A stretch of DNA of 64,000 nucleotides from assembly GCF_002005205.3 (NCBI RefSeq), contig NZ_CP019702.2, forward strand, positions 1-64,000, written 5' to 3'. This document shows positions 5,643-27,633 of this stretch, piece after piece. Position numbers and translations under genes: made by a program. The notes beneath the pieces are model-generated. The model ran no database searches, had not been told where the DNA came from, and was given only the letters and a program-made list of their open reading frames with translations. Position 1 is the stretch's first letter. Each line of letters opens with the position of its first letter. This DNA comes from Rhizobium rhizogenes. GTDB lineage: Bacteria; Pseudomonadota; Alphaproteobacteria; Rhizobiales; Rhizobiaceae.

Positions 5643-8600
5643 TTGGCGATTTATCATCTCAGCACCAAACCTGTCTCGCGCTCATCCGGCCGCAGCGCTG
5701 TCGCGTCCGCCGCCTACCGTTGCGCGGTTCTGCTCACCAATCATCGCGATGGCCTTGTTCATGACTTCACCCGCAAAGAGGGCGTGGAGCATACAGAGAT
5801 CGTGCTGCCGGAAGGCGTGGCTGCCGACTGGGCTTTGGATCGTTCGGCTTTGTGGAACGCTGCCGAGTTTGCAGAAAAGCGCAGGGATGCCCGCGTCGCC
5901 CGCGAATTCGAAATCGCGCTTCCGCATGAGCTTTCGCCAGAAGGGCGACTGAAGGCTGCACGCGCCTTTGCCCAGGATCTGGCAAACCGCTATGGCGCGG
6001 CCGTGGATTTTGCAATCCATTCGCCAAGTGAGCATGGTGACATCAGGAACTACCATGCGCATGTGCTGATGACGACGCGACAGGTTGGCAGAACCCGCCT
6101 TGGCGAGAAAACTTATCTTGAGCACAAGAACGCCAGGCTGCTGGCAAATGGCATGGCGACAACCGACATGCAGCTTCGCGATATCCGGCAATCATGGGAA
6201 GGCATCGCCAACCGTCAGCTTCAGCGCGAAGGCCTGGACGTTCGCATTGATCATCGATCGCATGTGGAGCGCGGTCTTGAGTTGTCGCCGACCGAACATA
6301 TGGGCGTGCATGCCTCACAGATGCAGCAGCAAGGAATGGCAGTCGAGCGCGGCCGGCTGGATGACGAGGCAGCACGGCGAAATGCCGCGCTGATCCGCCA
6401 AAAACCGGAACAGGTTTTGTCGCTGATCAGCAATGAGAAGAGTGTGTTCGATCGGCACGACATTGCCAAAACCTTGCATCGCTACATCAACGATGACGCC
6501 CAAACGTTCCAGAACGCCTTTGCGGCTGTCGTGGCGTCGCCAGCGCTTGTGGAACTCCAGGCTGAGCGCATCGATCCTGAGACAGGCGAAGTTTCCAGTG
6601 CGCGCTATTCGACGCGAGAGATGATTGATCTGGAACTCGCAATGGCGCGATCGGCGAATCGGTTGCATCAAGCGCATTCCCATGGCGTCGATCCTCGTCA
6701 TGTCGCGCGTGCAATGGAGAGGCAGGATCGCTCTATCCGGAAAAGCTCTGGCGGAACGTTTGCTGCGAGCGATCCGTCAACAGGATTATCGGACGAACAG
6801 CGTCACGCGATCAAACATATTACGGGGCCTGAAGGCATCGCGGCTGTGGTCGGGTTCGCTGGTGCGGGAAAGTCCACCATGCTTGCAGCCGCTCGTGAAG
6901 CGTGGGAGGCGCAAGGGTATCAGGTCCATGGTGCGGCACTTGCGGGAAAGGCAGCCGAGGGTCTTGAGGAGAGTTCCGGAATTCAAAGCCGCACCCTTGC
7001 GTCATGGTCTTACAGTTGGAACCACGGCCGGGGCATGATCGGCAGCAGTGACGTGCTTGTCATTGACGAGGCCGGCATGGTCGGGAGCCGTCAGCTTGCC
7101 CGCTTTATCGGCGAGGCTGAAGAGCGCGGTGCAAAGATCGTTCTTGTCGGCGACCATGAGCAGTTGCAGGCAATCGGCGCCGGTGCACCCTTCAGGGCGA
7201 TTGCCGAGCAGATCGGCCATGCCGAACTTTCCGACATTCGCCGCCAGCGCCATGATTGGCAAAGGCAAGCGTCGGTTGCCTTTGCGACCCACAAGGCGGC
7301 CGAGGGCCTTGCCGCCTACCGGGATCACGGCGACATCCACTTTGCGGAAAGCCGCGACGCGGCGATGGCGCAGATCGTGTGTGATTATGTTGCCGACAGT
7401 GAGAAGCATGCCGAGGGCACCCGGGTTGCCATGGCGCATCGCCGCGCCGATGTGCGCGCCCTCAATGTCGCAATCCGTTCCGAACTTCAGAACCGGCAAA
7501 GGCTCGAGCGCAGCCGCGGGCAGAACGCCGGTGCGGACCGTGGAGACCGTGGGGATAGTGACGACGGCCGCGAACTGACCTTCCAGACCAGTAACGGCAA
7601 ACGCGCCTTCGCCCCCGGTGACCGGATTATCTTTCTCGAAAACAACCGCGACCTCGACGTCAAAAACGGCATGCTTGGCACCGTCGAGCATGTCGAGAAG
7701 GGGCGGATCGTTGCCCGGCTCGATGGTCGAAGCGACAGTGTCAGCATTCCAACAGACAGCTACCAGGCGATCGACCACGGCTATGCGACGACGATCCATA
7801 AAAACCAGGGAGCGACGGTCGATCGCGCCTTTGTGCTAGCGTCCAGCACCATGGATCGGCATCTGACCTATGTCGCCATGACCAGGCACCGCGACAGCGT
7901 GCAGCTCCATGCCGACAGCCGGGAGTTCACCAATGCCGGCCGGCTGGTTGATCACGGCGTTGCGCCCTACGACCATAATCCGCAATCACGCGAGAGCTAT
8001 TTCGTGACGCTGGAGAATGACACGGGCGAGCGGCGCACAATGTGGGGCGTCGATCTCAAGCGGGCCATGCAGGAGTCCTCGCCAAAGATCGGGGACAGGA
8101 TTGGCCTTCAGCATGAAGGCGCCACGCCGGTCACGCTTCCGGATGGCACGCAGGCCGAGCGCAATGCATGGCGCGTCGTCAAGGGTGATGAACTCGCCTA
8201 CCAGAAGCTGGCAAGCCGCCTGTCGCGTTCCAGCGCGAAGGAAACCACGCTGGATTACATCAGGGATTTTGCCGAGCGGCGGGGTATAGCGGAGCGGCTC
8301 GGGGTCAGGAGCGAGATTGAACTTGCTTCCGCCCGAGATGAGCGCCAAGAGGTCTTGTCCCGTGCAGCCCATCTGCAACGGGAGCAGCAGGACCGGCCAT
8401 CAGAGCGTCAGCAGGTTTACGAGGAACCTGCAGGCGATCTCGCCGGCCCTGTTCGCCAGCACGATCCGCTCCATGATCTCGCTCCAAAGATCGATGACGG
8501 TCGGCCGGACGACCGGAAAGAGGAAAACAAAGGTTATCGCCGCATTCGGTGGTCCGACCTCATGTCGCAAGACGGCGCCGTCCTCGCCTCCACAGGAGCT

Positions 8601-9386
8601 GCCGGCCAGCAATCGCCGCTGGAACCCTGTAAGCCCAATCCGCTGGTGCCGACGATCACTCGCTACGAACGCAGCATCGAACAAATAGCTCGGGAAAGAG
8701 CGATGTCCATCATCGATCAGCGATTCGACACGGTGGAATCTGTCGCGCGGCACGTGTTCCATGATCCGGTCGAGGTCGCCACGAGACTGCGCACCGCGAT
8801 TACGGAGAAGGAAGGCAACGGGAGGATCATGGCAAAGGCCATGGCGGAGGAGCCGGAGCGGTTCGGGGAGCTACGCGGCAAGTCGGGTGTGTTCGGGAAC
8901 AACAGGGAGCGGAAAGAGGCGCTGCACTATGCCAGGTCTCTCTCTGCCCATATTGGCCATGTCTCCGAGGCATGGGAGCGCCGGCTTGGAGAAGAGCGCG
9001 GGAGCGAACAATGGCAGCGCGAACAGCGTGATGTGATCGAGGTGCCTGGCCTCACGCCGCGCAGCGCCGAAATCATCGCCCAGGTGGAAAAGACGCCAGT
9101 CGAGAAGCGGGGCAAGTTTATCGCGGAGCTGCGATCGTTACCTGAGGGGCAAGCCGCGCTTGATGAGGCCAAGCTGGTGGCCGAAGCACTCACGCGGCGG
9201 TTTGGCAGTTCCGATCCTCGCAGTTTCGCCCGGGAGCTTGAGACACGCACGGAACTCGCAAAACAGGCCGCGCAGATCAGGACAATCGCCCGCATTGTGG
9301 ATCGTACACGCCATGCCGAGCTGGCCCATGACCATACGCTGAAACAGCAACTCAACCGGTCTCAAGGGCTTGGACTGAGTCGATAG
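5643..9386 (+). CDS. traA: Ti-type conjugal transfer relaxase-helicase TraA
   Basis: A 1247-residue two-part protein. Residues 1-250 are a MobA/MobL relaxase with an upstream histidine and H138/H140 in HAHVLMTTR. The middle holds a RecD-like helicase with Walker A GFAGAGKST near 403 and Walker B VLVIDEAGMV near 470. The C-terminus is long and charged. It should nick the adjacent oriT core, stay bound to the 5' end and unwind the strand for transfer. The start appears to be TTG at 5643, with a GGAG about 8 nt upstream. The gene is intact and of family length. No mating-pair genes are nearby, so transfer would need help in trans. Confidence 0.9.
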   Translation: MAIYHLSTKPVSRSSGRSAVASAAYRCAVLLTNHRDGLVHDFTRKEGVEHTEIVLPEGVAADWALDRSALWNAAEFAEKRRDARVAREFEIALPHELSPEGRLKAARAFAQDLANRYGAAVDFAIHSPSEHGDIRNYHAHVLMTTRQVGRTRLGEKTYLEHKNARLLANGMATTDMQLRDIRQSWEGIANRQLQREGLDVRIDHRSHVERGLELSPTEHMGVHASQMQQQGMAVERGRLDDEAARRNAALIRQKPEQVLSLISNEKSVFDRHDIAKTLHRYINDDAQTFQNAFAAVVASPALVELQAERIDPETGEVSSARYSTREMIDLELAMARSANRLHQAHSHGVDPRHVARAMERQDRSIRKSSGGTFAASDPSTGLSDEQRHAIKHITGPEGIAAVVGFAGAGKSTMLAAAREAWEAQGYQVHGAALAGKAAEGLEESSGIQSRTLASWSYSWNHGRGMIGSSDVLVIDEAGMVGSRQLARFIGEAEERGAKIVLVGDHEQLQAIGAGAPFRAIAEQIGHAELSDIRRQRHDWQRQASVAFATHKAAEGLAAYRDHGDIHFAESRDAAMAQIVCDYVADSEKHAEGTRVAMAHRRADVRALNVAIRSELQNRQRLERSRGQNAGADRGDRGDSDDGRELTFQTSNGKRAFAPGDRIIFLENNRDLDVKNGMLGTVEHVEKGRIVARLDGRSDSVSIPTDSYQAIDHGYATTIHKNQGATVDRAFVLASSTMDRHLTYVAMTRHRDSVQLHADSREFTNAGRLVDHGVAPYDHNPQSRESYFVTLENDTGERRTMWGVDLKRAMQESSPKIGDRIGLQHEGATPVTLPDGTQAERNAWRVVKGDELAYQKLASRLSRSSAKETTLDYIRDFAERRGIAERLGVRSEIELASARDERQEVLSRAAHLQREQQDRPSERQQVYEEPAGDLAGPVRQHDPLHDLAPKIDDGRPDDRKEENKGYRRIRWSDLMSQDGAVLASTGAAGQQSPLEPCKPNPLVPTITRYERSIEQIARERAMSIIDQRFDTVESVARHVFHDPVEVATRLRTAITEKEGNGRIMAKAMAEEPERFGELRGKSGVFGNNRERKEALHYARSLSAHIGHVSEAWERRLGEERGSEQWQREQRDVIEVPGLTPRSAEIIAQVEKTPVEKRGKFIAELRSLPEGQAALDEAKLVAEALTRRFGSSDPRSFARELETRTELAKQAAQIRTIARIVDRTRHAELAHDHTLKQQLNRSQGLGLSR

Positions 9387-10038: not shown

Positions 10039-10998
10039 TTACTGACTACCGAACGCATTCATGCCCGTCAGCTCTGCGGAGATTTCCCAGAGATGTGCTG
10101 CTTCGTTCTCATCGACGGCATATGCTTTTACCCCCACCAGTGGCGGCGTACTATCGTCGGCACGAATAGCCACATCACAATCCTCGCAATAGAGGCCGCC
10201 GAACCCTTCAAGCTGTGGCGTCGTTGCTGCCCATACTGCCGTAGCGGCTCCCTGTTCCGGTGATTTAAGTGGAATAAGAGGATTTCCTTCTGCGTCGATC
10301 CAGCCGGCCGCCACCATTTCCTCCATGGTCAGATGACGTTGAAGCGGGGTTGCAATATTTCCCGGATGCACCGAAAAGGCTCTGACACCTTCTTTTCTTC
10401 CCAACAGATCAAGGCGTAATGCAAAGAGCGCGTTGGCGGTCTTGGATTGGCCATAGGCAACCCATTTGTCATAGCCGCCTGCGAAGTGCAGGTCATCCCA
10501 ACGGATCGGCGAGAAATGATGCCCTGCCGATGAAACTGAAACGACCCGGGCACCGCCGGACAGGACCGGCCATAGCCTGTTCGTCAGCGCGAAATGACCC
10601 AGGTGATTAGTAGCAAACTGCATCTCCCAACCCGGTCCGACGCGCGTTTCGGGAGATGCCATGACACCGGCATTGTTCATCAGAATGTCGATATGTCTGC
10701 CCCGTTCGAGGATTTTCTCCGCAAAGGCATTGACGCTTTTCATATCTGACAGATCAAGCGCTTCCACCGTGACATCAGCAATATTGTCTGTCGCGGCGCG
10801 CGCCTCATCGAGATTACGGGACGCGACTATTACTACCGCGCCCGCCTTCGACAAGGCTTTGGTTATTTCGAGACCGAGACCTGAGTGTCCCCCGGTTACG
10901 ATCACCTGTTTCCCGGAAAGGTCGATGTTGGCAATAACATCAGCCGTGGAGCTATCAGTCCCGAACCCCGAGTGAAGCGGCTTTTGATGGTCAGTCAT
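10039..10998 (-). CDS. Short-chain dehydrogenase/reductase
   Basis: A 319-residue SDR enzyme with the NAD(P)-binding loop TGGHSGLG at 35-42, NNAG at 108-111, a serine near 156 and the catalytic YxxxK at Y182/K186. The extended length resembles retinol-dehydrogenase/oxidoreductase-like SDRs that oxidise alcohols or reduce ketones. It is divergent from the AraC regulator at 11120 across a gap of about 120 bp, which probably controls it. Within the block it could oxidise the alcohol released by the esterase; that role is inferred from the mymA-like context. No defects are visible. Confidence 0.8.
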   Translation of the reverse strand: MTDHQKPLHSGFGTDSSTADVIANIDLSGKQVIVTGGHSGLGLEITKALSKAGAVVIVASRNLDEARAATDNIADVTVEALDLSDMKSVNAFAEKILERGRHIDILMNNAGVMASPETRVGPGWEMQFATNHLGHFALTNRLWPVLSGGARVVSVSSAGHHFSPIRWDDLHFAGGYDKWVAYGQSKTANALFALRLDLLGRKEGVRAFSVHPGNIATPLQRHLTMEEMVAAGWIDAEGNPLIPLKSPEQGAATAVWAATTPQLEGFGGLYCEDCDVAIRADDSTPPLVGVKAYAVDENEAAHLWEISAELTGMNAFGSQ

Positions 10999-11119
10999 GT
11001 AAACTCTCCAATAGATGTTGGCTGTATTTTGTGCCTGTCGGAAAAAGATGGAGTGCGCTCATGGAACAATCCATGCTAAATAGTACGGATATCTTTCTTG
11101 ATCGTTCGGATTTGGCGAT

Positions 11120-12061
11120 ATGGACCCTCTGTCAAATGCACTTTCGTTGCTGAAACCCAAGGGAACCCTAACTGTGGGTCTCGATGCCGGCGGGGACTGG
11201 GCAATCAGCTTCCCTGCTCACGAAGGGGTAAAGTTCAACGCGGTGATAAAGGGCAGTTGCTGGCTCATGGTTGAGGGTGAAGCGGAACCACGGCGGATTG
11301 AGGCCGGAGATTGTGTACTGTTTACCCGCGGCTATCCCTTTGTTGCAGCGAATAATCTTGGGTTGCCTGCGATGGGGGCGGCATCAATCTACGAAGGGGC
11401 CAAAAACGGCATGGCGACGTGCAATGGCGGTGGGGATTTTTATCTGATTGGTGGACGCTTTTCCTTTGAGCAGGATCGCTTTGATCACCTGTTTGCATCG
11501 CTGCCCTCTGTGCTTCACATTCGAGGAGACGTCAGAGAGGCAAGCGTGCTGAGATGGTCTCTGGAACAACTCGCGGTGGAATTGGCTCAAAACTCGCCGG
11601 GCAGCAGCCTGATGGCTGAGCATCTGGCACATATCATGTTGTTGCAAGTGCTGCGGCTCTGGCTGGAATCGTCGGTGGATCAGACAGGTTGGCTGGGCGC
11701 ACTCGCGGATGTGCGTCTTTTTCGAGCGATCGCGGGCATGCACGCGGAACCTGCGCGACGTTGGACAGTGGCCGACCTCGCCGGGCTCGCCAGCATGTCC
11801 CGAACGACTTTCGCCGTGCGCTTTCGCGATGTTGTCGGTCAAACGCCGCTCGGCTATCTCACCAACTGGCGCATGCAACTCGCTGCAGATCTACTCCAGT
11901 CGACAGAAAGCGATGTGCGAAAGATAGCCTTTTCTGTCGGATATCTGTCGGAGGCGGCTTTCAGTACCGTCTTCCGACGTGCACTCGGCTACACTCCTGC
12001 TCAGTACAGACGCGCAAAGTCCGCCGCGTTGACCAGTCGCGATCTAAACGGTCTCAGGTGA
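11120..12061 (+). CDS. AraC-family regulator with N-terminal cupin domain
   Basis: A 313-residue regulator. The N-terminal half (residues 10-170) looks like the cupin ligand-binding domain of the AraC cupin-6 subgroup (WAISFPAHEGVKFNAVIKG, then the DCVLFTRGYPF strand pair). The C-terminus (about 215-305) holds the double helix-turn-helix (RRWTVADLAGLASMSRTTFA and the second helix ending in GYTPAQYRR). It is divergent from the SDR gene and convergent with the second AraC gene, overlapping its 3' end by 8 bp. It most likely controls the SDR promoter; the inducer is unknown. Confidence 0.82.
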   Translation: MDPLSNALSLLKPKGTLTVGLDAGGDWAISFPAHEGVKFNAVIKGSCWLMVEGEAEPRRIEAGDCVLFTRGYPFVAANNLGLPAMGAASIYEGAKNGMATCNGGGDFYLIGGRFSFEQDRFDHLFASLPSVLHIRGDVREASVLRWSLEQLAVELAQNSPGSSLMAEHLAHIMLLQVLRLWLESSVDQTGWLGALADVRLFRAIAGMHAEPARRWTVADLAGLASMSRTTFAVRFRDVVGQTPLGYLTNWRMQLAADLLQSTESDVRKIAFSVGYLSEAAFSTVFRRALGYTPAQYRRAKSAALTSRDLNGLR

Positions 12062-13079
12062 TATCGCCCGACCATTCTTTCCCGGACTTTTCGAGGCTTT
12101 TGACAGAGCCAAACCAGCGCCGCCAGGCCCTGTTGAAGCTTGCGGGATCTTCGTATCCCAATCGTGAGGCAATATCGTCGCGGCGGAGCCGGGCATCTTT
12201 GTATTGTATGGCTCGGCGTCGCAATTCGCTATCTAGCAGTTCCCGAAAGCCCGCCCCCACTTCTCGAAGTCGCCGTACCATCGTTCGTCGCGATACACCC
12301 AAGCTGGCGGCTACCATATCCGCGCTTGGACGGCCGTCCGGCGCCGACTGCAGTATTCGCTCTATCCGCGCCAGAAACTGCACAGGATTCTCCCGTCGCC
12401 GCTGCGCGGCGAACTCCAACTCATCGACCGCTCTCTTGTAGAGGACAGGATCAGCAGTGACCGACCGCATCGGCCACCAGGATCGTGGAAATTTCGCCCG
12501 ATTGACCAGCTTACCATATTGCACCTTCCCACCGAGAACCTCACGGGCGCGGGCTTCGTAAGGAGGGGCGGGCACGGTAAATGTGAATTCCAGTTCGGGA
12601 GCCTCAGTGCCCAAAGCGGCACGGACTACGGATCGGATCGCGAGGAAATTAACCTCCATCATTGGCAGCCATTGCGCCTCGGTTAGGGGAACCGTGACCT
12701 CCCAGTCGAGTATCATGTATGCCCCCAGTGGTCTGATGGTTCCTCGCTGGAATGGTGTTCGAGCCGGGCCGTAGCGTGGTAACACTGCTATCCCGTCCCC
12801 GACTGTTGGCGCCGAAATAGCAGCGATTGCGACGGCTCCATGGATAGAGGTGTTCCATATCTCCGGCTTCAGGAACACAAAACCCGGGCCAAAGCGCGCG
12901 ATCATGTTGTCGATCACCCGGACCTGCTGGAAAAGGCTGATTTCTGTCTGAGGGTCGTCAAGATCGCTTTCCGTCAAATTAGTACCTGCCAGAATCTGTT
13001 CGTCTTCCGTCCCGTAGGCGCGGTACGCAAGACGCAGATAACTCGTCGTCATGGGCAGATGAAGCAGTGAATTCTCCAT
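12054..13079 (-). CDS. VirS-like AraC/XylS-family regulator
   Basis: A 341-residue regulator with an N-terminal arabinose-binding-type domain (PF12625-like, about residues 20-210) and a C-terminal AraC helix-turn-helix (SADMVAASLGVSRRTMVRRL, then GYEDPASFNRAWRRWFG). This is the architecture of M. tuberculosis VirS. It is divergent from the monooxygenase at 13241, just as virS is divergent from mymA. A candidate operator lies 4-24 bp upstream of its start codon, suggesting autoregulation as well as control of the catabolic genes. The 3' end overlaps the convergent cupin-AraC gene by 8 bp. Confidence 0.8.
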   Translation of the reverse strand: MENSLLHLPMTTSYLRLAYRAYGTEDEQILAGTNLTESDLDDPQTEISLFQQVRVIDNMIARFGPGFVFLKPEIWNTSIHGAVAIAAISAPTVGDGIAVLPRYGPARTPFQRGTIRPLGAYMILDWEVTVPLTEAQWLPMMEVNFLAIRSVVRAALGTEAPELEFTFTVPAPPYEARAREVLGGKVQYGKLVNRAKFPRSWWPMRSVTADPVLYKRAVDELEFAAQRRRENPVQFLARIERILQSAPDGRPSADMVAASLGVSRRTMVRRLREVGAGFRELLDSELRRRAIQYKDARLRRDDIASRLGYEDPASFNRAWRRWFGSVKSLEKSGKEWSGDIT

Positions 13080-13082
13080 TGG

Positions 13083-13103
13083 CTCAAAATGCCACCTTTT
13101 TGG
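13083..13103 (-). promoter_or_regulatory. Candidate VirS-like operator, copy 1
   Basis: On the minus strand this 21-bp element centres on GTGGCATTTTG and matches the element at 18187-18207 at 18 of 21 positions. It lies between the divergent VirS-like regulator and the monooxygenase, 137 bp before the monooxygenase start and just before the regulator's own start codon. A diverged second half-site, TGGCAGTTTCG, is at 13116-13126 on the plus strand. Regulatory function is inferred from repetition and placement. Confidence 0.5.
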
Positions 13104-13240
13104 CCTGAAGCCAACTGGCAGTTTCGGACTGATGAACTCTATTGTCTATGAACGTCAGTAGATCAATCCACCAATCATAGCTGAAGCACTGGAGGTTGCT
13201 TGAGTGATTTTTGGTTCGTCCTGACGATGGGAGGAAGCAC

Positions 13241-14752
13241 ATGAACGAGCAAACAAGTACCAAAGTGCTGAGCGTGTTTAACGATGATCGGCCAGAAATC
13301 GAGCATTTTGACGTCTTGATTGTCGGAGCAGGCATATCTGGCATCGGCTCTGCGGCACGCCTCGTCAGGGACTGCCCCTGGGCGAGCTTCGCAGTGCTAG
13401 ACGCTCTGGATGGCCATGGCGGCACTTGGCGGTCGAACAGCTTTCCAGGAGCGCGCTCGGACAGCGATCTGTTTACCTATGCCTACAGCTTCAAACCGTG
13501 GGAAGGGCCTCCGATCGCCCGGCGCGATGCGATCCTCGACTATCTGAATGATGTCATCGGCGATTACAGCCTGCATGAGCATATTCGCTACGGCCATAAG
13601 GTATTACGTGCCGTATGGTCGACCACAAAATCTTGCTGGTTCGCCAGCGTTAGAACGGCCAACCACGACATCGTGACGATCAAGGCCAATTTCCTCTGGA
13701 TGTGCCAGGGATATTATCGCCATCTTGAAGGGCACATACCTGATTGGCCGGGCCTGAACGACTTTAGGGGCGATATTATACACCCGCAGCGCTGGCCGAA
13801 GGATTATGCCCATACAGGCAAGCGGATTGTAGTGGTCGGATCCGGAGCTACCGCCGCCACATTGCTTCCTGCCCTTGCTGAAGAAGCTGAACATGTCGTC
13901 CAGCTGCAACGCTCTCCATCCTATTACTTCGCATCGCCGAACGAATATCCTCTGGCGACGCAACTGCGTCAACTGGACATTCCCAAGGAATGGATTCACG
14001 AAATCTTGCGGCAGCAGCTCCAGAAGGAGCACAGCATGTGGGTGCGCCATAGTCTCGACAACCCGGAGGTCGCCGCCAGGGAAATGCTGGACGGCGTCCG
14101 GGAGGCGTTAGGGGGAACCCTGCCAGACGACTTCATCCCCCGATACAAGCCATGGCGCCAGCGGGTCTCCATGATTCCGGACGGCGACTTCTTCAACGCG
14201 ATCAACAGCGGCAAGGCAGATGTCGTCACAGGTGAAATCGAAAGGCTTACTGAATCCGGAATTTTGCTGAAATCCGGTGAGTTGCTTGAAACGGATGTCA
14301 TCATCACGGCAACCGGTTTCAATATCAATCCGTTTGGAGACATCGAGATCGCCAGGGATGGCGATCTGCTCGACATCACCGAGACCGTCACATATCGCGG
14401 ACTTATGTTCACCGACATACCCAATCTTGCCTGGATAGCGGGTTATTTTCGATCTGCCTCCTACACGATGAGAACGGAGCTCGTCGGCGACCTTGTCACT
14501 AGGCTGTTGAACGAGATGCACGAGAAGGACCTCAAATCAGTGGTGCCAAAGTTGCGGGAAGAGGACCAGGACATGAAGTTTGTGCCGTTCCTCGACACCG
14601 AGGAGTGGCGCCCCGGTTATGTTGTTCGTGCCGGTGACACGCTGCCAAAGAGTGGCAATCGCGACCCCTGGCGTCACACCCAGGAATATAACGCGGATAA
14701 AGCTGCCTTTGCGGTGCTTGAATTTGCCACGGAGCCGCTCGTCTTCGAGTGA
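13241..14752 (+). CDS. Baeyer-Villiger flavin monooxygenase (MymA-like)
   Basis: A 503-residue class B flavoprotein monooxygenase. Visible motifs are the FAD-binding GAGISGIG at 29-36, the Baeyer-Villiger fingerprint FRGDIIHPQRWP at 175-186 (a full match to FxGxxxHxxxWP) and the NADPH-binding GSGATA at 200-205. It should convert a ketone to an ester using O2 and NADPH. The start at 13241 is chosen for the GGAGG about 8 nt upstream. It is followed after 51 bp by an esterase that would hydrolyse the ester product. Gene order and the divergent VirS-like regulator match the mycobacterial mymA locus. The natural ketone is unknown. Confidence 0.88.
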   Translation: MNEQTSTKVLSVFNDDRPEIEHFDVLIVGAGISGIGSAARLVRDCPWASFAVLDALDGHGGTWRSNSFPGARSDSDLFTYAYSFKPWEGPPIARRDAILDYLNDVIGDYSLHEHIRYGHKVLRAVWSTTKSCWFASVRTANHDIVTIKANFLWMCQGYYRHLEGHIPDWPGLNDFRGDIIHPQRWPKDYAHTGKRIVVVGSGATAATLLPALAEEAEHVVQLQRSPSYYFASPNEYPLATQLRQLDIPKEWIHEILRQQLQKEHSMWVRHSLDNPEVAAREMLDGVREALGGTLPDDFIPRYKPWRQRVSMIPDGDFFNAINSGKADVVTGEIERLTESGILLKSGELLETDVIITATGFNINPFGDIEIARDGDLLDITETVTYRGLMFTDIPNLAWIAGYFRSASYTMRTELVGDLVTRLLNEMHEKDLKSVVPKLREEDQDMKFVPFLDTEEWRPGYVVRAGDTLPKSGNRDPWRHTQEYNADKAAFAVLEFATEPLVFE

Positions 14753-14803
14753 GTCCTGCGATCGCCACGGAACATTGGGCTATAGGCCCGACCACCTGAA
14801 AGG

Positions 14804-15859
14804 ATGCGCGCAATCATTCTGGCCGCACCGCGTCCCACACAAACAGCCGTAGAGGAGGCCGTGGCCATGGTCCGCGACGCCGTATTTCCGCCTGTCATTC
14901 GGCAAGACGTCCAGAACTTCCTGGACAATGCCAACAGCATACCGGGTCCAAAACTGTACGAAATGGAGCCTCAGGAGGCACGTGCCCGCTTTCTTGAGGA
15001 TATACGCCTTACCGACCTGCCTATCGAGAAACTGCCGGTCATACGCGACCTCGCCATTCCGGCTGCAGCTGGTTTTATCCCTGCGCGGATATATGATCGA
15101 CGTGAACAGAAGAGGGAAGACCCAACGCCGACGGTCGTTTTCTTTCACGGCGGCGGGTTTGTCATTGGCAATCTTGATTCTCACGCCGGTTTCTGCGCAG
15201 AGATGGCGCGTTCGCTCGATCTTCCGGTCGTCGCGATTGATTACCGGTTGGCGCCGGAGGCGAAATGGCCGGCTGCACCAGATGATTGCGAGGTTGCCGC
15301 GCGCTGGGTAGCCGAAAGCCCGGCGGCACTCGGTTTTGATGTGTCCGGACTGATTCTCGTTGGCGATTCTGCCGGGGGGAATCTTGCAATCGTCAGTGCG
15401 CTCGCCTTGCGAGATCGTCCGGCTAAAGTGCCGGTACTGATACAGGCGCCTATTTATCCGGCCACCGATATCAGTCGCCCTTATCCGAGTGCCAGGGAAT
15501 TTGCCGAAGGATTTCTGCTGACCGCACCGATGCTGGACTGGTTTATCACGTGCTATGGCGCTGATGCACAAGACCACCGTACCTCACCGGTACTTGCAGA
15601 TCTCGACGGCTTACCATCCGCCATTGTCGTCACTGCAGGACTTGATCCACTTCGCGACCAGGGACGGGCTTATGCGACAGCGCTGGCGGAAGCAGGCGTA
15701 GACGTCTGGTTTCACGAAGCAGAAGGGAATGTCCACGGTTTTGTTGCGCTGAGGCAGGCAATCCCGTCCGCAACTGCCGATGTGGCGTGGATTTTGACGA
15801 TGCTGCGCACAGAAATCCATCGGATCGCTGCGCAAAATTTACCGGCGGATATACGCTGA
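14804..15859 (+). CDS. Alpha/beta-hydrolase esterase, HSL family (LipR-like)
   Basis: A 351-residue hydrolase with the oxyanion-hole motif HGGGF at 115-119, the nucleophile elbow GDSAG (serine 189), an acid in AGLDPLRD (D281 or D285) and the catalytic histidine in NVHGF (H311). These define the hormone-sensitive-lipase group of carboxylesterases. Encoded 51 bp after the monooxygenase, it probably cleaves the ester that enzyme makes into an alcohol and an acid; lipR holds the same place in the mymA operon. The catalytic set is complete. Confidence 0.87.
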   Translation: MRAIILAAPRPTQTAVEEAVAMVRDAVFPPVIRQDVQNFLDNANSIPGPKLYEMEPQEARARFLEDIRLTDLPIEKLPVIRDLAIPAAAGFIPARIYDRREQKREDPTPTVVFFHGGGFVIGNLDSHAGFCAEMARSLDLPVVAIDYRLAPEAKWPAAPDDCEVAARWVAESPAALGFDVSGLILVGDSAGGNLAIVSALALRDRPAKVPVLIQAPIYPATDISRPYPSAREFAEGFLLTAPMLDWFITCYGADAQDHRTSPVLADLDGLPSAIVVTAGLDPLRDQGRAYATALAEAGVDVWFHEAEGNVHGFVALRQAIPSATADVAWILTMLRTEIHRIAAQNLPADIR

Positions 15860-15968
15860 GACGACACAGGCACCTGCAAGCGTCAATCGACTGAACCTGA
15901 CCGTCCAGACCTCCGGCTCTGCACTACAACTTACTTCACCAAACCAGGAGGAAACAGCACTGCGCGGT

Positions 15969-17157
15969 ATGATGATGAATGTTCCCCTGTTGATTTCATC
16001 AATACTGGATCATGCGGTCGAAAACCATGGTGATACAGAAATTGTTTCACGCGCGACCGAGGGCAGAATTCACAGATATGTTCCATGTCAACGCTTGGGG
16101 TATTCCTTTCTCGGCACTGATTGTGGGGGCCAAGCTAGTCATGCCTGGCGCAAATCTCGATGGAGCAAGCCTGTATTCTCTGTTCGAAAGCGAAGGCGTC
16201 ACAATTGCCGGCGGTGTCCCGACCGTTTGGATGGCGCTGCTGGACTGGATGGATGCAAATGCTCGGTCCTTTTCCAGCCTTCAACGAATTGCCGTAGGTG
16301 GGTCAGCGCCTCCGCTCGATATGATCAACCGCTTCCAAAGCCGAAACATCATGGTACGACATGCGTGGGGCATGACAGAGACGAGCCCTATCGGCTTGGT
16401 ATCAGCAAAACTGCCAAAACATCAGAATCTCTCGTCGGAAAAGCAAGCGCTCAATCTGACCAAGCAGAGCCGACCGATTTACGGTGTGGAAATTCGTGTT
16501 GACCGCGCTGACGGCAAACCCATCCCACGTGACGGCAAGGCTATGGGCAACCTGCTGGTTCGTGACCCCTGGATTGCATCCGACTACTTTGACAATGGAC
16601 AAAACTCTACACATGAAGACAATGGTTGGTTTGACACGAATGATGTCGTCACGGTCGATGCAGACAATATCGTTCAGATCGTTGATCGCACCAAAGACTT
16701 GATCAAGTCCGGCGGAGAGTGGATCAGTTCAATTGAACTGGAAAACAGTGCGCAGGCGCATCCCTCAATGAAAGAGGCGGCGGCGGTTGCGAAACTGGAT
16801 CAACGTTGGGGAGAGCGGCCCGTTCTCGTCGTGCAGCTGCAACCCAATGCGCTATTCACATACGACGATATGGTTTCGCTCTATTCCGGCAAGGTTGGTA
16901 AGTGGAGCATTCCGGACGAAGTCATCATCGTTGATGAACTTCCCCACAATGCCACCGGAAAACTCTTGAAATCAGCCATCCGCGAACTTGTCACCGCTCG
17001 CTTGGGGCCGGCAAGGCAAACGCGGCGGATGACGACTAAAAGACCTTTACCATTCTCTTGCCGACGTTTTCTCCTGCAAGCAGGCCAACCAAGGCACTCG
17101 GGAGAGAATCAAAGCCTTCCAGAACATCTTCGCAAACCTCTATCTGACCTGTATTGA
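15969..17157 (+). pseudogene. FadD13-like acyl-CoA ligase with large internal deletion
   Basis: Two pieces of one acyl-CoA synthetase gene joined out of frame. The first, from the ATG at 15969 with an AGGAGG upstream, encodes a normal N-terminus (about 36 residues, to IHRY). It then meets, at about 16077, a segment in another frame that resumes at MFHVNAWG and carries the rest of the adenylation and C-terminal domains (AWGMTETSP, DRTKDLIKSGGEWIS, PHNATGKLLK). About 180 residues, including the P-loop TSGTTGxPK motif, are missing. The frame also runs past the expected end into the 3' end of the convergent oxidoreductase. The protein cannot be an active ligase. Confidence 0.85.
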
Positions 17158-18034
17158 CCCAGCCGCTTAGTTCGGAGATTACGCGCTCTTGCTCCCCAAG
17201 AAAGTCAAACAGGAGGAAACCACGGATGGTAAGGCTCTTCAATATAGCCTGACCCGGAAAACCGCTTGGGCCAGCACCCGGAGTACCCGCATCATATTGG
17301 GAAACTGCCCCGCAGCAAACGATCCGCCCATATTGTGCCATATTGGCCAAGCAGGCATCCAGCACCTCTCCTCCGGTATTATCGAAATAAACATCGATAC
17401 CGTCTGGGCAGGCAGACTTTAGATCTTCCAGGAGATTACCGGCCTTGTAGTCGACAGCTGCGTCAAAGCCCAACTCCCCCGTCAACAAAGCACATTTTGC
17501 GTGGCCGCCAGCAATACCAACGACACGGCAACCCTTGATCCGGGCGATCTGACCGGCAATGGAGCCAACCGCACCACCGGCGGCGGATATGACGACCGTG
17601 TCACCCGGCTCCGGTTGGCCGCATTCCAGCAGACCGAAATAGGCCGTGAGACCAGGAACGCCGTAGATGCTGACCAGATGGCTCAACGGCTCAATTCTGG
17701 GTAGCTTGGTAAGGGTCTGTGCCGGGACGACGGCAAAAACCTGCCAGCCCGTTTCCGTGAAGACAAGATCGCCAGGCGCCAGGTTGGACGAGCGCGACTC
17801 GATCACTTCTGCCAGCGACATGCCGGCCATGAGATCGCCGCTCGCAAGGCCGGCCCGATACGTGGCCCCGTGCATCCACGCTCGACTTGCGGCATCTAAA
17901 GCCACGTACAACGTTCGGAGAAGAACTTCTCCCTCTGCCGGAACAGGACGTTCAGTTTCACGTATCTCAAAATGATCTGCAGAAAGCTTGCCTTGCGGAA
18001 GCCTCGACAGAATGATTTGGCGGTTGGTTACCAT
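17036..18034 (-). CDS. MDR-family NADP-dependent oxidoreductase
   Basis: A 332-residue medium-chain reductase without zinc ligands, of the leukotriene-B4/curcumin-reductase type. The nucleotide-binding segment is AAGGAVGSIAGQIARIKG near 150-167, with GLTAYFGL before it. Such enzymes reduce the C=C of enones. The ATG at 18034 is chosen because GAGGAAA lies just upstream; the frame is open to 18100. It converges on the broken acyl-CoA ligase and overlaps its extended frame. A copy of the VirS-like element lies about 150 bp upstream, suggesting that it belongs to the same regulon although it is separately transcribed. Confidence 0.82.
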   Translation of the reverse strand: MVTNRQIILSRLPQGKLSADHFEIRETERPVPAEGEVLLRTLYVALDAASRAWMHGATYRAGLASGDLMAGMSLAEVIESRSSNLAPGDLVFTETGWQVFAVVPAQTLTKLPRIEPLSHLVSIYGVPGLTAYFGLLECGQPEPGDTVVISAAGGAVGSIAGQIARIKGCRVVGIAGGHAKCALLTGELGFDAAVDYKAGNLLEDLKSACPDGIDVYFDNTGGEVLDACLANMAQYGRIVCCGAVSQYDAGTPGAGPSGFPGQAILKSLTIRGFLLFDFLGEQERVISELSGWVNTGQIEVCEDVLEGFDSLPSALVGLLAGENVGKRMVKVF

Positions 18035-18186
18035 GTTTCCTCGGCTGTCGTAATTAAATCCGCAACGAATTGGCGCTTTGAAACGCAATTCCCATTGCAA
18101 TGCAGCTGCTGCTCACAAGCGCACTTAGCGAGTAGAGCGTCGCGATAGTTACGGTGATTGCCTCCTTGTTGGGAGTAGACGACACG

Positions 18187-18207
18187 CCAATAAAGTGGCA
18201 TTTTGCG
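18187..18207 (+). promoter_or_regulatory. Candidate VirS-like operator, copy 2
   Basis: This 21-bp element, centred on GTGGCATTTTG, matches the element at 13083-13103 at 18 of 21 positions. It is 152 bp upstream of the oxidoreductase start at 18034. Relative to its gene it has the same orientation as copy 1 has relative to the monooxygenase, and nearly the same distance. That argues for a true operator over chance, but binding is not shown. Confidence 0.5.
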
Positions 18208-18365
18208 TCAGACGTTCAAGGTCGGCTCACACGAGGGGGCTCGGGGAGAAGGTAGCTTTAGCGTCACCATTCGGATTTTTATTCTCCGGCTTTTGAGGCC
18301 ATTGATGACTTGCCCAAAAAAATTTCATTCAATTATAGCAACAAGCCTCAGTAGTCCTATCTGCT
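18208..18365. other. Intergenic junction before ICE remnants
   Basis: No gene is recognised between the oxidoreductase promoter region and the relaxase fragment that starts at 18366. It marks the edge between the catabolic block and a degenerate conjugative-element block. The sequence around 18320-18360 is AT-rich. Confidence 0.4.
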
Positions 18366-18725
18366 TCAAATTGAGATGCCTTTACTCCGCCACAACTGCC
18401 ACGGCACCGAACCGCCCTTAACCTCACGGCCAAGCTGGCGGTCAATGACCGGCCGCCATGGGACAAGAATGAACTCGCGCACCTTCTCGACGATGACAAA
18501 CTTGCTGCTGGCGAGTTGCACGGTGCCGGTGAACTTGCCACTCACGCTGTGGCCGTCCGTGGCGGCGCGGAATGGCAACGCCTTGCTCGTGGCGATCTCC
18601 GCGCCGACGCTGGCAACTTCGCGCTCGCGCAGCGTGGCGAGAAGGCTGCGCTGGTAGAAGATGCGACCATCCTGCGTTCGGGTGGCATCGCCCTGTTCGA
18701 TATGATGCTCGCGCCGCTTGTCCAT
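18366..18725 (-). pseudogene. C-terminal fragment of a DUF3363-type ICE relaxase
   Basis: An open frame of about 119 residues resembling the extreme C-terminus of the long VirD2-like/DUF3363 relaxases of proteobacterial integrative conjugative elements. Recognisable pieces include MDKRREHHIEQG, LATLREREVA, ALPFRAATDG and VPWRPVIDRQLGRE. Similarity seems to extend a little upstream, to about 18770, before an in-frame stop. The relaxase domain itself is absent. The end is followed by unrelated sequence, so this is a remnant of an element different from the traA block. Confidence 0.65.
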
Positions 18726-18829
18726 GGCGTCGCGTACCTGTGGCCGAAGCCGGCCGGAGCGCGATCCGATGCGTTAGGCGTCACGAGCCGCTGATCGAGC
18801 TAGGTCGCCCCATCGGACCCGATCTGGCT

Positions 18830-19153
18830 TTCCAGATTGAAAGTCGAGGTTTTACCGGGCGTGTTCACATGCTCACGCTTTATCGGGAACGCACCATCGT
18901 TCCGGCCGAGCCATCCGATGCCGAGAACGCACCGGACTATGGCACTCATCACGGCACTAATGATGGTCCCGAGATCGGAGCTGCGTGGAAGCGTACCGGC
19001 GAGAGGGCGGACAAGTATCTCTCCGTGCTGCCCGACGATCCCGCTTTACTCCAGGCGATCAGCGCAAATCTGTTCCGCGACGACGCCGGCGGGACCCCGT
19101 GGTCCCTGCACTGGAATCCGACCGCGACCGCGCGAAGATCGGGACTGACATGA
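18830..19153 (+). pseudogene. DUF736-family ICE protein, 5'-truncated
   Basis: The frame contains features of the small DUF736 proteins carried by conjugative elements: GFTGRVHMLTLYRE, VPAEPSDAENAPDY, GPEIGAAWKRTGE and NLFRDD near the end, about 105 residues in all. The open frame runs in from upstream with no suitable start codon and no Shine-Dalgarno at the expected position. It appears to have lost its first residues. It is divergent from the DUF3363 relaxase fragment, supporting a shared ICE origin. Function of DUF736 is unknown. Confidence 0.6.
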
Positions 19154-19214
19154 TGGGATCCCGCGCTCTTTTCCTCTTTACGGCCCTGCCGTCGCTTGGC
19201 TGTTCGTCGTGTAA

Positions 19215-19946
19215 TCAACCGGTGACGCGAGCGCGTCGATTGCGCCGCCAAGAGACACCCAAACGACCAGCCCATTGCGTGGTCCGGTCGAAGATGAACC
19301 GCATGGCGGTGACATTTTCGTTGCCCGTGCAAGTGATGGGAATACGCCGTTCCAACTGGCGCAGATCGGCAAACAGGTCTGCAAGCAGCTTACACATTGC
19401 CGACGAGAGATCGTTGGATTGATCTTCGACAGCTTGCGACAGGTCGACCTTGAATAGGCCCGCGCCTTGGCGCAGTGCGATCCCGTATTCGAGGTAGAAA
19501 GCTCGCATCTGATTGATCAGACACGTTCTCGTTCCGATCATCTGATCTCGGACCCTGTTGTGTAAAGCCTGAAGGTCGGCTTGTTCCTCGCTCTTGAGTG
19601 CAGCAAATCGCATTGTTGGACGTGTGGCAGCCTCAGCGATCGCTTCCGCATCGATGATGTCGCTCTTGTTCGACTTTACGTAGGGCTTCACGAACTGCGC
19701 GGGGATCAAGCGCACCTTATGTCCAAGCGCCTGTATCTTACAGGCAATCCACTGAGATCCTGCACACGCTTCCATCCCTACGATCGCCGGCGCCGCACGC
19801 TCGAAGAACTGTAGCAGCGTGTCGCGTCGGAAACGAACCCTCTGGACTGGGACGCCATCGCTTCTGAGGCCGACAACATGAAAGATGTTCTTGCCAATAT
19901 CAATTCCGTAGGCAGCCGCTGGGCGCGGCATATTGCGCTGTGGCAT
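19215..19946 (-). pseudogene. IS110-family transposase, C-terminally truncated
   Basis: 243 residues from the ATG at 19946. The N-terminal RuvC-like DEDD domain is recognisable (YGIDIGKNIFHVVGL, VGMEACAGSQWIA, KSNKSDIIDAEAIAEA). Full IS110 transposases have 320-400 residues with a C-terminal transposase-20 domain. Here similarity fades after about residue 195 and the domain is missing, so the element is dead. It abuts the ICE remnants on one side and an IS3 remnant on the other. Confidence 0.75.
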
Positions 19947-20036
19947 TGCAACCTCCTTCGATTTGGGCGCCTCATGATGCGGCAGGAGGACGAGGCGGAC
20001 CATCCCATTGATGGTGACGCCCGGCGCAAGGCGAGA

Positions 20037-20880
20037 TGTGGTGGCCCATGTCTGCAAGGAGCACGACGTGAACCAGCGCCGGGCGTGTGCGATCCTGTCC
20101 GTTGATCGGTCTAATGTGCGATATTCCAGCGTTCGGCCGAACGATGCGTCCATTCGGAGGCCATGAGGCAGGTTGCGTCCGGGCGCCGCCGCTTCGGCTA
20201 TCGCCGTATCCATGTGATGCTGGATCGGCAGGGTATTGTCATAAACTTAAAGAAGCTGCATCGCCTCTACCGGGAAGAGAAGCCTGCGGTTCGTAAGCGT
20301 GGTGGCCGTAAGCGGGCCTTGGGAGCGCGACGGCCCATCGCGCTGCCGTCACGGGCCAACGAGCAGTGGAGCCTTGACTTCGTCAGCGATGCATTCACCG
20401 ATGGACGGCGGTTCCGCGTCTTAGCCATTGTCGACGACTTTACCCGAGAATGCCTGGCGCTGGTCGCCGACACAACCCTTTCGGGCCTGCGTGTTACGCG
20501 GGAACTCGATATCGCCATGGCCCGACGCAGACGACCTCGAACAATTGTCTCGGATAACGGAACCGAACTGACCTTGATGGCAATTCTCAGATGGTGCCAA
20601 CAGACACGTGTCGAATGGCATTACATCGCACCGGGAAAGCCGATGCAGAACGGATATATCGAATCCTTCAACGGCCGCATGCGTAACGAGCTGCTGAACG
20701 AGAGCTTGTTCTTCGGGCTCGGCCACGCCCGCAGTGCCATTTCCAAGTGGGTCGACGATTACAATACATCCGGCCGCATTCGTCGCTCAGATACCACACC
20801 CCGACAGCCTATGCCGGGACCATCGCCGCAACCGGCTCCAACGCTGCGCCAATTGGCGTAACGAAAACCGTCGAGGCTCT
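20037..20880 (+). pseudogene. IS3-family OrfB transposase with two frameshifts
   Basis: The DDE integrase core is clear: D in WSLDFV, D in SDNGTE, E in ESFNGR. The longest frame, from 20163, begins with [14 protein letters not shown]. Upstream, a segment in another frame (VCKEHDVNQRRACAILSVDRS) is the expected N-terminal part; one missing G near 20155 separates them. Near 20765 the frame shifts again, because the expected RPHSSL-type ending is in a different frame. The element is therefore inactive. It lies next to the truncated IS110. Confidence 0.75.
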
Positions 20881-21198: not shown

Positions 21199-22548
21199 TC
21201 AACAGTTTGGAAAGTGTATTACGACCGCCAATCCGGGAGCGTTGTCCTTAAGCTCTATCTTCGCCTCATGGAGCTCTGCTATAGCTTTTACCAAACTGAG
21301 GCCAAGGCCGGTTCCATTCGAAGTCCTGCTCTTTTCCAGCCGATAGAACCGGTCAAAAACACGGTGTCGCTCCGCCACCGGTATTCCCGGTCCATCATCG
21401 CAAACCGCCAGACAAATGGCTCCCCGTTCCTGCGAAACATTGATAGTTATTGAGGAACCGGAAGGGGTATGATGCATCGCGTTGGCGACAAGATTTGCCA
21501 ACATCTGTCGAATGAGATCAATATCACCGTTGACACAACAACAGGCAGGCGTGCTTTTAAAATTGAGTCGATACCCTTCCTCGCAGGCACTTGCTTCATA
21601 GGTTTCGTAAATGTCGCGACACAGCCCCGTGAGGTCAATCATCGCAAACTTGGTGGTTCGATTACGCGACTCAATGCGTGCAATTCTTAGGAGTGCATCG
21701 AAAGTATCAGCAATCGACCCTAATTCAGCAAGCGCAATCTCAACGGAAATTTTGGCATCCCCGACAGTCTCGGCTTGCAACGCCTCGTCCAGCACAAGGA
21801 ATGTCCGGCTGATAGGTGTTTTCAAGTCGTGGGCAATATCGGTTGTCACCTGCTTCATACCCGTAACGCTGACTTCCAATCGCGTGAGTGCGACGTTAAT
21901 TTCGCTTGAAAGAATATCTATTTCGTCCTTTCTTGTAGAAATTGGGAGGCGTCTTGACAGTTCTCCATGACCAATCGCGTGAGCGGTCTTCGTAAGTACA
22001 GATATCCGACGCCTGGTACGATATCGCAGTACAGCAGCCCCACCCAATCCAACAGCAAAGACGATGGCTGTCGTCCAACCCAAGCTGACTAGCACGATCC
22101 GAGCAAGCTCGTCACTGCCTCCAGAGCTGATACCGACGACGAGATCATTCTCTCCCAATCGTCCACGGAATAATTTGTAACTCGGTTGGCCGCCGCGTTG
22201 CCCACTGGGAGAGAACGTAGAAAATCCTAGCGGTGAACCGAGCAACGTAGCGTTCCCGGCAATCACGACTCCCGAAGAATCGCAAAGCGTATAGATGGTC
22301 TCCTCACCTCGAATTGCAGGGCCATGGCTGTTGATCATATCGATCGCCCCAGAAAGCCCGCGATCCTCGTAAGCCGTCTCGATCTCACGGTAGCGTTCCA
22401 TCACAATGGAATTGAGATGATCATTCAGAAAATTCAGCACCATCTTGGATGCGATGATGTTCGCCCCAAGATACGAGATGACAAAGAAGGAGATGTAAAT
22501 GATCGTAATTCGTACCGCTGAGCTTTTGAAGAAACTACCGTCGGCCAT
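21199..22548 (-). CDS. Membrane sensor histidine kinase (copper-type)
   Basis: A 449-residue sensor kinase. Transmembrane helices at about 12-34 and 151-174 flank a periplasmic sensing loop of about 115 residues. A HAMP domain follows (about 175-230), then a HisKA dimerisation domain with phospho-acceptor H240 in DIAHDLKTPIS. The HATPase domain shows NLVANAMHHTP, DDGPGIP and GTGLGLSLVKAI. It should phosphorylate the regulator whose gene overlaps its start by 14 bp. Its position beside copper-resistance genes suggests periplasmic copper or silver as signal; the sensing residues are not identified. Confidence 0.88.
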   Translation of the reverse strand: MADGSFFKSSAVRITIIYISFFVISYLGANIIASKMVLNFLNDHLNSIVMERYREIETAYEDRGLSGAIDMINSHGPAIRGEETIYTLCDSSGVVIAGNATLLGSPLGFSTFSPSGQRGGQPSYKLFRGRLGENDLVVGISSGGSDELARIVLVSLGWTTAIVFAVGLGGAAVLRYRTRRRISVLTKTAHAIGHGELSRRLPISTRKDEIDILSSEINVALTRLEVSVTGMKQVTTDIAHDLKTPISRTFLVLDEALQAETVGDAKISVEIALAELGSIADTFDALLRIARIESRNRTTKFAMIDLTGLCRDIYETYEASACEEGYRLNFKSTPACCCVNGDIDLIRQMLANLVANAMHHTPSGSSITINVSQERGAICLAVCDDGPGIPVAERHRVFDRFYRLEKSRTSNGTGLGLSLVKAIAELHEAKIELKDNAPGLAVVIHFPNC

Positions 22549-23212
22549 GCAGCGTATAACCCGTGTTGCGAATGGTATGCAGCAACTGGAATTCGAAGGG
22601 CTTATCGATCTTTGCTCGTAGTCGACTGATATGCGTCTCGACGACCGAACTTTGAGGGTCGAAATTAAAATTCCAAATTCGCTCCAGCAACATGGTTTTG
22701 GTGAGGACTCGACCTTCGTTTCGCATTAGGAGTTCCAGCAGAGAAAACTCACGGGGCAAGAGATCAATCGTGGTCTCGCCACGTATAGTGGTCCGTCTGA
22801 CCAGATCAATCTCAAGGTCGCTGACTCGCAGCTTGGTTTTCTCCAGCGTTATCGGTGGACGTCTCACCAACGCGTTCATTCGCGCCATCAATTCCGAAAA
22901 GGCGAAAGGCTTCACTAGATAGTCGTCGCCACCAGCTTCCAAACCTTCGACACGATCATCCACATCACTCATCGCCGTGAGAAACAGCACCGGAGTTCTA
23001 ATGGTGGCCGCGCGTAGGCTTTTGACTAACGTCAGGCCATCCAATCCCGGAACCATGCGGTCGACGATCAGTACATCATATGCGGCGTCCAGACCAGCCG
23101 CTAGGCCTTCTCTGCCATCTCCTACCCAATCGACAACATGACCGGCCGAGGTCAGGCCTTTGACGACATAACTGCCCGTTCTCTGATCGTCTTCGATAAG
23201 AAGAATCTTCAT
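22535..23212 (-). CDS. OmpR-family response regulator (CopR/CusR-like)
   Basis: A 225-residue regulator with a receiver domain (D8/D9, phosphorylation site D51, conserved K101 in LVKPF) and a C-terminal winged-helix DNA-binding domain ending in VVETHISRLRAKID and GYTLHGRR. It is co-transcribed with the downstream kinase (14-bp overlap). A CopR-box-like palindrome lies 108 bp upstream, between it and the divergent secreted-protein gene. It most likely activates both directions and perhaps the copper operon from 24043. Confidence 0.88.
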   Translation of the reverse strand: MKILLIEDDQRTGSYVVKGLTSAGHVVDWVGDGREGLAAGLDAAYDVLIVDRMVPGLDGLTLVKSLRAATIRTPVLFLTAMSDVDDRVEGLEAGGDDYLVKPFAFSELMARMNALVRRPPITLEKTKLRVSDLEIDLVRRTTIRGETTIDLLPREFSLLELLMRNEGRVLTKTMLLERIWNFNFDPQSSVVETHISRLRAKIDKPFEFQLLHTIRNTGYTLHGRR

Positions 23213-23685: not shown

Positions 23686-24042
23686 CAACAATCCACGGCT
23701 GCGGTGTTGTACCCTGATACCTGGAGTTTGGCGGACATCTCAAGATGAGCCGACTTGGTCCGCGGCAGATAAGCGGCGGCGACTATCGTGAGAAGATGGG
23801 CACCATCAGCGAAGAGAGCGTTAAAAGTTCGCCAAGCGCAAGCGCGGTGTCTTCCTTTGGTTTTGCCATCTCGCGATCACCGCAGCCCGTGGATTTGTGA
23901 ATGAGTCTGGGCACTGTAAACAAGGCCCCACCCGGTTCTGCCCTCGAACAGCTCAACGCAACGCCAGTTGGGTGTAATTTCTTATGTCGATAGTCGAGCA
24001 ACAAAATCGGCGCAACCATGATCTTATTCCCGGATTTTCACC
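23686..24042. other. Intergenic region before the copper operon
   Basis: No gene recognised in 357 bp. It must contain the promoter of the operon that starts at 24043 unless transcription continues from 23413. I find no second CopR-type palindrome. Short open frames here on the minus strand resemble nothing known. Confidence 0.4.
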
Positions 24043-24267
24043 ATGAAACGTTTGTTCCTGGTGGTTGCCCTGCCGCTTTTTGCGGGCGGATGCGCAGCCA
24101 CCTTACCTGAAGTCGTCGTATCGACCGACAGCCCCGACACCGTCTCCAGCATCAGGCCCATTCCCTACCAAAACCCGATCGGAGCTTACACGCACCGCGT
24201 TCCCGTCAATCCGAAACCCTGGCGTGGTCTGAACGACGCACAGGCGCCGGCAAAGGGAGGCGCATGA
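24043..24267 (+). CDS. Small outer-membrane lipoprotein of the copper operon
   Basis: A 74-residue protein with a lipoprotein signal (LFAGGC, lipidated cysteine near residue 17) followed by about 57 proline-rich residues (IRPIPYQNPIGAYTHRVPVN). It overlaps the next gene, encoding a TolC-like lipoprotein, by 4 bp (ATGA), so they are translationally coupled. It may be an accessory subunit of that channel. Family not recognised, but the signal and the coupling make the gene real. Confidence 0.7.
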   Translation: MKRLFLVVALPLFAGGCAATLPEVVVSTDSPDTVSSIRPIPYQNPIGAYTHRVPVNPKPWRGLNDAQAPAKGGA

Positions 24268-25727: not shown

Positions 25728-25741
25728 GAAAGGAAACGGGA

Positions 25742-27100: not shown

Positions 27101-27133
27101 CCGTCAATCCTCCCAAACGAAAAGGAAAACAAC

Positions 27134-27613: not shown

Positions 27614-27633
27614 GCAAACAAGGAAACCGATCC

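Follow-up and report, generated by a model that had tools for sequence, protein, structure and literature searches.

Four described systems come closest to the locus reported here, which lies in the first 64,000 nucleotides of contig NZ_CP019702.2 of Rhizobium rhizogenes (assembly GCF_002005205.3; this whole stretch is hereafter the window) and carries two copies of a 40-bp putative operator, one upstream of a gene for a Baeyer-Villiger type flavin monooxygenase (BVMO) and one upstream of a gene for an NADPH-dependent ene-reductase. The mycobacterial mymA operon contains a BVMO gene with an esterase and a FadD gene. VirS, the AraC-type regulator encoded divergently from this BVMO, acts on the virS-mymA intergenic region according to a passage of PMC13234193. 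CypR of Dietzia and Alcanivorax is an AraC/XylS activator of CYP153 alkane hydroxylase genes, and a passage of PMC8784404 describes both CypR and AlkR as activators. APR1 of Acinetobacter venetianus RAG-1 is, according to passages of PMC11784139, an AraC/XylS activator of the flavin monooxygenase gene almA, with long alkanes as target, and binds the almA promoter as well as its own; one passage suggests that APR1 departs from the usual proximity model, and the main text of that paper contains neither the wording 'binding site' nor 'footprint', so that it offers no operator for comparison. The araI1-I2 operator of Escherichia coli K-12 displays the boxes TAGC (positions 1-4), TCCA (12-15) and TAGC (22-25). 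On box assignments that we take as given, the araBAD -10 box occupies operator-equivalent positions 59-64.

The present locus resembles each of these systems in part. Like the VirS/mymA system, it holds an AraC-type regulator gene divergent from a BVMO gene, with an esterase gene and a FadD gene (broken here) nearby. Unlike that system, it has its ene-reductase gene on a separate, convergent transcript, and the similarity of the two regulators is modest: the match to VirS (PDB 8rcx chain A, residues 52-326, E 5.7e-13) is one of two PDB matches and a distant one. The best NCBIfam match of the regulator is CypR (NF053784, E 3.8e-35), and its operator-bearing relatives face CYP153 or AlkB genes; however, the match reaches 121.8 bits against an equivalog cut-off of 500, and the locus described here has an enzyme of Baeyer-Villiger type and a second transcript. 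As with APR1, the predicted target of the AraC-type activator is a flavin monooxygenase gene. The operator shares with araI1-I2 direct half-sites whose first boxes lie 21 bp apart and another box at positions 12-15, with the -10 place near position 60 in both, a likeness in sequence only, while its boxes read TGGC and GCCA in place of TAGC and TCCA and the ligand of AraC is a sugar. We propose, with good confidence, that a single CypR/VirS-type AraC protein activates both the BVMO-esterase and the ene-reductase transcripts through this 40-bp tandem operator.

The repeated element and its position

The cluster comprises the following features.
12054..13079, minus strand: AraC/XylS regulator of CypR/VirS type with Arabinose_bd and HTH_18 domains (Pfam, NCBIfam and PDB matches)
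13080..13119, plus strand: operator 1, TGGCTCAAAATGCCACCTTTTTGGCCTGAAGCCAACTGGC, directly beside the first ATG of the regulator; 38.7 bits with a matrix made from relatives only
13140..13145, plus strand: candidate -10 box TATTGT of the monooxygenase promoter, operator positions 61-66
13241..14752, plus strand: BVMO (Pfam FMO-like)
14804..15859, plus strand: hormone-sensitive-lipase (HSL) type esterase (Abhydrolase_3), the next gene, in the same direction as the BVMO
15969..17157 (narrower span 15969..17055), plus strand: broken FadD-type acyl-CoA ligase, its C-terminal part in one frame from 16012 (model positions 228 and above)
17036..18034, minus strand: NADPH-dependent ene (double-bond) reductase of the CurA / leukotriene B4 dehydrogenase (LTB4DH) type, convergent to the other transcript
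18146..18151, minus strand: candidate -10 box TAACTA of the oxidoreductase promoter, weak, operator positions 60-65
18171..18210, minus strand: operator 2, TGACGCAAAATGCCACTTTATTGGCGTGTCGTCTACTCCC, upstream of the oxidoreductase; 39.5 bits with the relatives-only matrix

A first-pass annotation of this DNA had described a 21-bp element shared by positions 13083-13103 and 18187-18207, oriented alike toward the genes that follow and similarly distant from them. The reverse complement of the first (CCAAAAAGGTGGCATTTTGAG) and the plus strand of the second (CCAATAAAGTGGCATTTTGCG) are indeed identical at 18 of 21 bases. Each element and the gene it precedes are on opposite strands, and the distances are 137 bp to the monooxygenase ATG at 13241 and 152 bp to the oxidoreductase ATG at 18034. 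Because the elements precede the genes at the outer ends of the cluster, both operators point inward and face each other. The first element also sits, as had been claimed, where the regulator gene begins: 4 bp separate it from the ATG at 13079, or about 30 bp if translation begins at 13052. The earlier start yields a protein of 341 residues and is favored by the homologs P0005-P0008, which share a conserved LPMT-containing N-terminus; the database copy has 332 residues and thus begins at the later one.

The 18 of 21 match was attained by 2 of 2000 Markov-1 resamplings of both intergenic regions. A genome search with the 23-bp consensus of both copies, allowing up to three mismatches, returned exactly these two sites in 5.48 Mb and none for the reversed control; the many occurrences unrelated to catabolic promoters that the annotation had regarded as fatal to a common regulon were not seen. 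A longer 25-bp pattern gave two perfect sites and seven weak hits with three mismatches in the same genome (control, three) and no hit in 396 other genomes of the order, which are a sample, since the Phyllobacterium locus L016 and Bradyrhizobium loci, fetched otherwise, do carry it. An 11-base core was rejected as evidence by itself because its reversed control was equally frequent (two genome hits each). Chance similarity of the two copies was rejected on the resampling, the genome pattern search, the 396-genome sample and the matrix expectation given below. Recent duplication of one promoter segment was also rejected, since identity drops outside the operator and operator 2 has the base commoner among relatives: position 5 is G in operator 2 and in 14 of 16 non-redundant relatives, and T in operator 1. 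The likeness of the copies extends beyond the 21 bases into the 40-bp operator.

The operator beside homologous regulators

Related loci were gathered by the regulator protein alone, with an alignment of the window's regulator and 11 homologs, and the best 80 of 98 were fetched; a genome-contig scan with the single regulator protein found no relative, while the alignment scan found them. Of the 37 nearest loci, 35 carry CAAAATGCC no more than 200 bp upstream of the regulator match, and the other 43 all lack it there; these distances run to the start of the tblastn match, where the start codon is unproven. The sequence reads away from the regulator, and 15 further hits fall elsewhere in the 1.38 Mb of fetched loci. 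The same sequence emerged de novo as the most shared 9-mer, present in 19 of 21 representative upstream regions (21 of the 37 were used) against at most six in 300 random draws. This recurrence beside homologous regulators implies that the operator goes with this regulator family. The two misses among the nearest loci are L007, with no site, and L016, in which the operator follows the regulator gene and precedes that of a FAD-dependent enzyme, toward which it points. Operator direction thus goes with the target gene, as it does for both window copies, which makes activation of the monooxygenase and the oxidoreductase our preferred reading.

Aligned sites of the relatives display TGGC at positions 1-4, GCCA at 12-15, TGGC at 22-25 and a GAACTSGC-like block at 33-40, and the 40-bp tandem consensus is TGGCkCAAAATGCCAc-N5-TGGC-N7-sAACtsGC. 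Operator 1 carries the first three boxes in the same places and CAACTGGC at 33-40. A matrix was made from 13 of the 35 relatives' sites, those at least 85% identical having been dropped and the window excluded from training. At the scores of operators 1 and 2 the expected chance hits per genome are 2.5e-6 and 1.3e-6 respectively (60% GC background), and a scan of the window at 12 bits or more found no site besides these two. At the score of operator 2, the 80 loci (training sites included) gave 34 hits upstream of the regulator and one elsewhere, in L016. Outside positions 6-15 the window operators still score with P of about 2e-7 and 1e-7, and positions 26-40 alone give P 0.026 for operator 1 and 0.001 for operator 2.

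The regulators of these loci were compared at their first helix-turn-helix, using the 75 of 81 proteins longer than 200 residues. All 37 operator-bearing regulators (those of 36 loci and of the window) have the motif SRR[TS], as does one of the 38 without the operator (L007). On the target side, a TA dinucleotide falls within operator positions 59-66 in 15 of 22 sites that we picked, two of them only from Bradyrhizobium (13 of the 20 from relatives); a count of 15 in any such bin was attained by 11 of 5000 shuffles. This layout of operator and -10 box fits an activator bound adjoining RNA polymerase.

In the mechanism we propose, two regulator subunits would each occupy one of two directly repeated half-sites offset by 21 bp, with TGGC at 1 and 22 and the second boxes at 12 and 33. 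A dimer would then sit immediately upstream of the -10 box, in the manner of AraC on araI1-I2. The ligand would probably be hydrophobic, an alkane, ketone or fatty-acid-like compound, and the ligand-bound regulator would recruit RNA polymerase to two promoters facing each other, the first serving the BVMO-esterase transcript (with the broken FadD) and the second the ene-reductase. Binding, activation, the dimer and the ligand are all predictions from sequence. The esterase is presumably co-transcribed with the BVMO, and because operator 1 adjoins the beginning of the regulator gene, a position suggestive of autoregulation, the regulator probably tunes its own expression. The single VirS-like regulon over two transcripts proposed in the first-pass annotation is therefore retained in its main part, as supported by the sequence, with the regulator better termed CypR/VirS-type and the 21-bp element understood as part of an operator with two half-sites.

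Standing of the second operator and other explanations

The number of sites per genome is the first of several observations that weigh against joint activation. Among 24 genomes of relatives, 16 have one perfect 20-bp site, three have only a one-mismatch site beside the regulator and five have none; a second perfect site was found in none of the 24, and no close relative with both genes was found in which conservation of the ene-reductase site could be followed. Two full operators were seen in the window's genome alone. Two-site regulons are thus unusual, and the ene-reductase site is consequently the less certain of the two. In five extra one-mismatch sites of the relatives the first TGGC box is absent in register. 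A family search with the 20-bp pattern hit 7 of 297 genomes, presumably including, to judge by identical coordinates, the Phyllobacterium of L016 beside the window's own; the sites of the other five lie across open reading frames, and the first TGGC box is missing from them.

Further points fall on the same side. The -10-like box of operator 2 is weak, Bradyrhizobium sites show CATGCT at the -10 place with no TA box, and positions 26-40 of operator 1 resemble the relatives weakly, as the P value above indicates. Because the training sites were selected by the 9-mer, full conservation at nine core positions is built into the matrix. L007 has the same recognition helix and no site, and the site of L006 lacks the first TGGC box, with none of the listed oxygenases at that locus. 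The regulators that carry the operator appear to form a single clade, so helix and operator may co-occur partly by descent. Given its broken FadD, the cluster may be in decay. Finally, a passage of PMC8784404 reports an alkB2 promoter with a well-matching operator that was unresponsive, so that operators predicted by homology can be silent.

The strongest alternative, which we nevertheless consider unlikely, is that operator 1 is real for the monooxygenase and operator 2 a relic or silent, with the ene-reductase regulated otherwise. Single sites are the rule in relatives, as the counts above indicate, and the cluster, with its broken FadD, lies near a relaxase gene, a DUF736 gene and transposases. 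However, operator 2 does not fall behind operator 1 in score and exceeds it at positions 26-40, and the base at its position 5 and the fall of identity outside the operator mark it as no recent duplicate. Very improbable is the idea that the site mainly represses the regulator's own gene and that the likeness near the oxidoreductase is chance. Operator 1 does lie at the regulator start, likewise in L001, L004 and L008, but in L016 the operator follows the regulator and precedes another gene, the distance to the regulator match ranges from 14 to 198 bp in relatives while the -10-like TA is fixed on the side of the divergent gene, and the expectation for a chance second site is about 1e-6. Binding of the operators by another regulator, either the second Arabinose_bd protein of a genome with two PF12625 proteins or the RclR-like AraC protein encoded at 11120-12061 beside the cluster, is hardly credible, since in other genera the operator is found beside homologs of the 12054-13079 protein and the window has no further site, hence none at the 10039-12061 gene pair.

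Target genes, surroundings and likely function

Activation of both transcripts by one CypR/VirS-type protein thus remains the preferred reading, and the genes that face the regulator in the 37 nearest loci bear on what it senses. These are AlkB-like in 27, CYP153 in three, AurF-like in three and a BVMO in one, with none of these in three; AlkB or CYP153 neighbors therefore account for 30 of the 37. The AlkB and CYP153 names rest on the PDB match of one member each (E 5e-115 and 2e-186), and the AurF-like name on Pfam matches of L002 and L004. Because an oxygenase faces the regulator in 34 of the 37, the regulator is most likely a sensor of hydrophobic substrates or products of alkane oxidation. 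The cluster itself probably serves the degradation of oily compounds. In L002-L004, the operator seen at other loci before AlkB or CYP153 genes instead precedes genes of AurF-like diiron proteins, and we regard these proteins as candidate oxygenases of hydrophobic substrates.

The regulator's own domains are PF12833 (HTH_18, E 1.1e-10) and the sensor domain PF12625 (Arabinose_bd, E 1.1e-18), in the AraC/XylS architecture. Over about residues 20-240 of its 503, the BVMO aligns with cyclohexanone and phenylacetone monooxygenases; it shares 65% identity with the product of the gene that diverges from the regulator homolog in L001. A similar pairing by a different switch occurs in Stagnimonas (L079, 7279-8664), where the gene of a BVMO sharing 37% identity with the window's enzyme diverges from that of a distant AraC-type regulator lacking this operator. 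With a BVMO and an esterase present, the substrate here may be a ketone from subterminal oxidation, and the ene-reductase would saturate an enone or enal on the pathway; both suggestions come from pathway knowledge. In the broken FadD, about 190 residues, judged from model positions, are absent between the C-terminal part and a short stretch from 15969 in another frame, which has no Pfam hit and to us looks like the FadD N-terminus.

Several further features surround the cluster.
5643..9386 (plus strand) and 18572..20861: MobA/TraI-type relaxase-helicase, DUF736 gene, and IS110-type and rve-type transposases
10039..12061: a second divergent pair, with a short-chain dehydrogenase (minus strand) and an RclR-like AraC regulator with a cupin domain (11120..12061, plus strand)
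21199..23212: two-component system, near the copper genes
24020..27918: TolC-type efflux protein, multicopper oxidase and copper-binding genes, about 80% identical to Agrobacterium plasmids

The relaxase-helicase has a BID-domain match of 36.3 bits (Pfam cut-off 29.5). The nearby relaxase, DUF736 and transposase genes place the cluster in a mobile region. Because of them, and because the 20-bp pattern was absent from the five genomes of the same genus that were searched, the cluster was probably acquired horizontally. Plasmid searches returned no copy of it: one gave 71 records, none covering 80%, and another 278 records, all below 60% identity. In a third, the best matches fell on the copper genes and not on the cluster.

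We hold it to be an evenly balanced possibility that one regulator-operator cassette has become coupled in Alphaproteobacteria to at least four unrelated oxygenase types (AlkB, CYP153, AurF-like diiron and BVMO), that it is a portable hydrophobe-sensing switch, spread here to a second promoter, and that the AurF-like genes are candidates for an undescribed hydrocarbon oxygenase. Literature searches, judged from the papers that they listed, turned up none describing the 40-bp operator; of 28 papers containing fragments of the motif, the 20 listed seem by their titles to be unrelated. Our analysis thus defines a 40-bp operator that can be assigned to a group of CypR-like regulators in the Alphaproteobacteria. 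With it, alkane and ketone oxidation regulons would become readable from sequence and reporter promoters could be chosen, and the tie of the ene-reductase to the BVMO-esterase pathway becomes a testable prediction.

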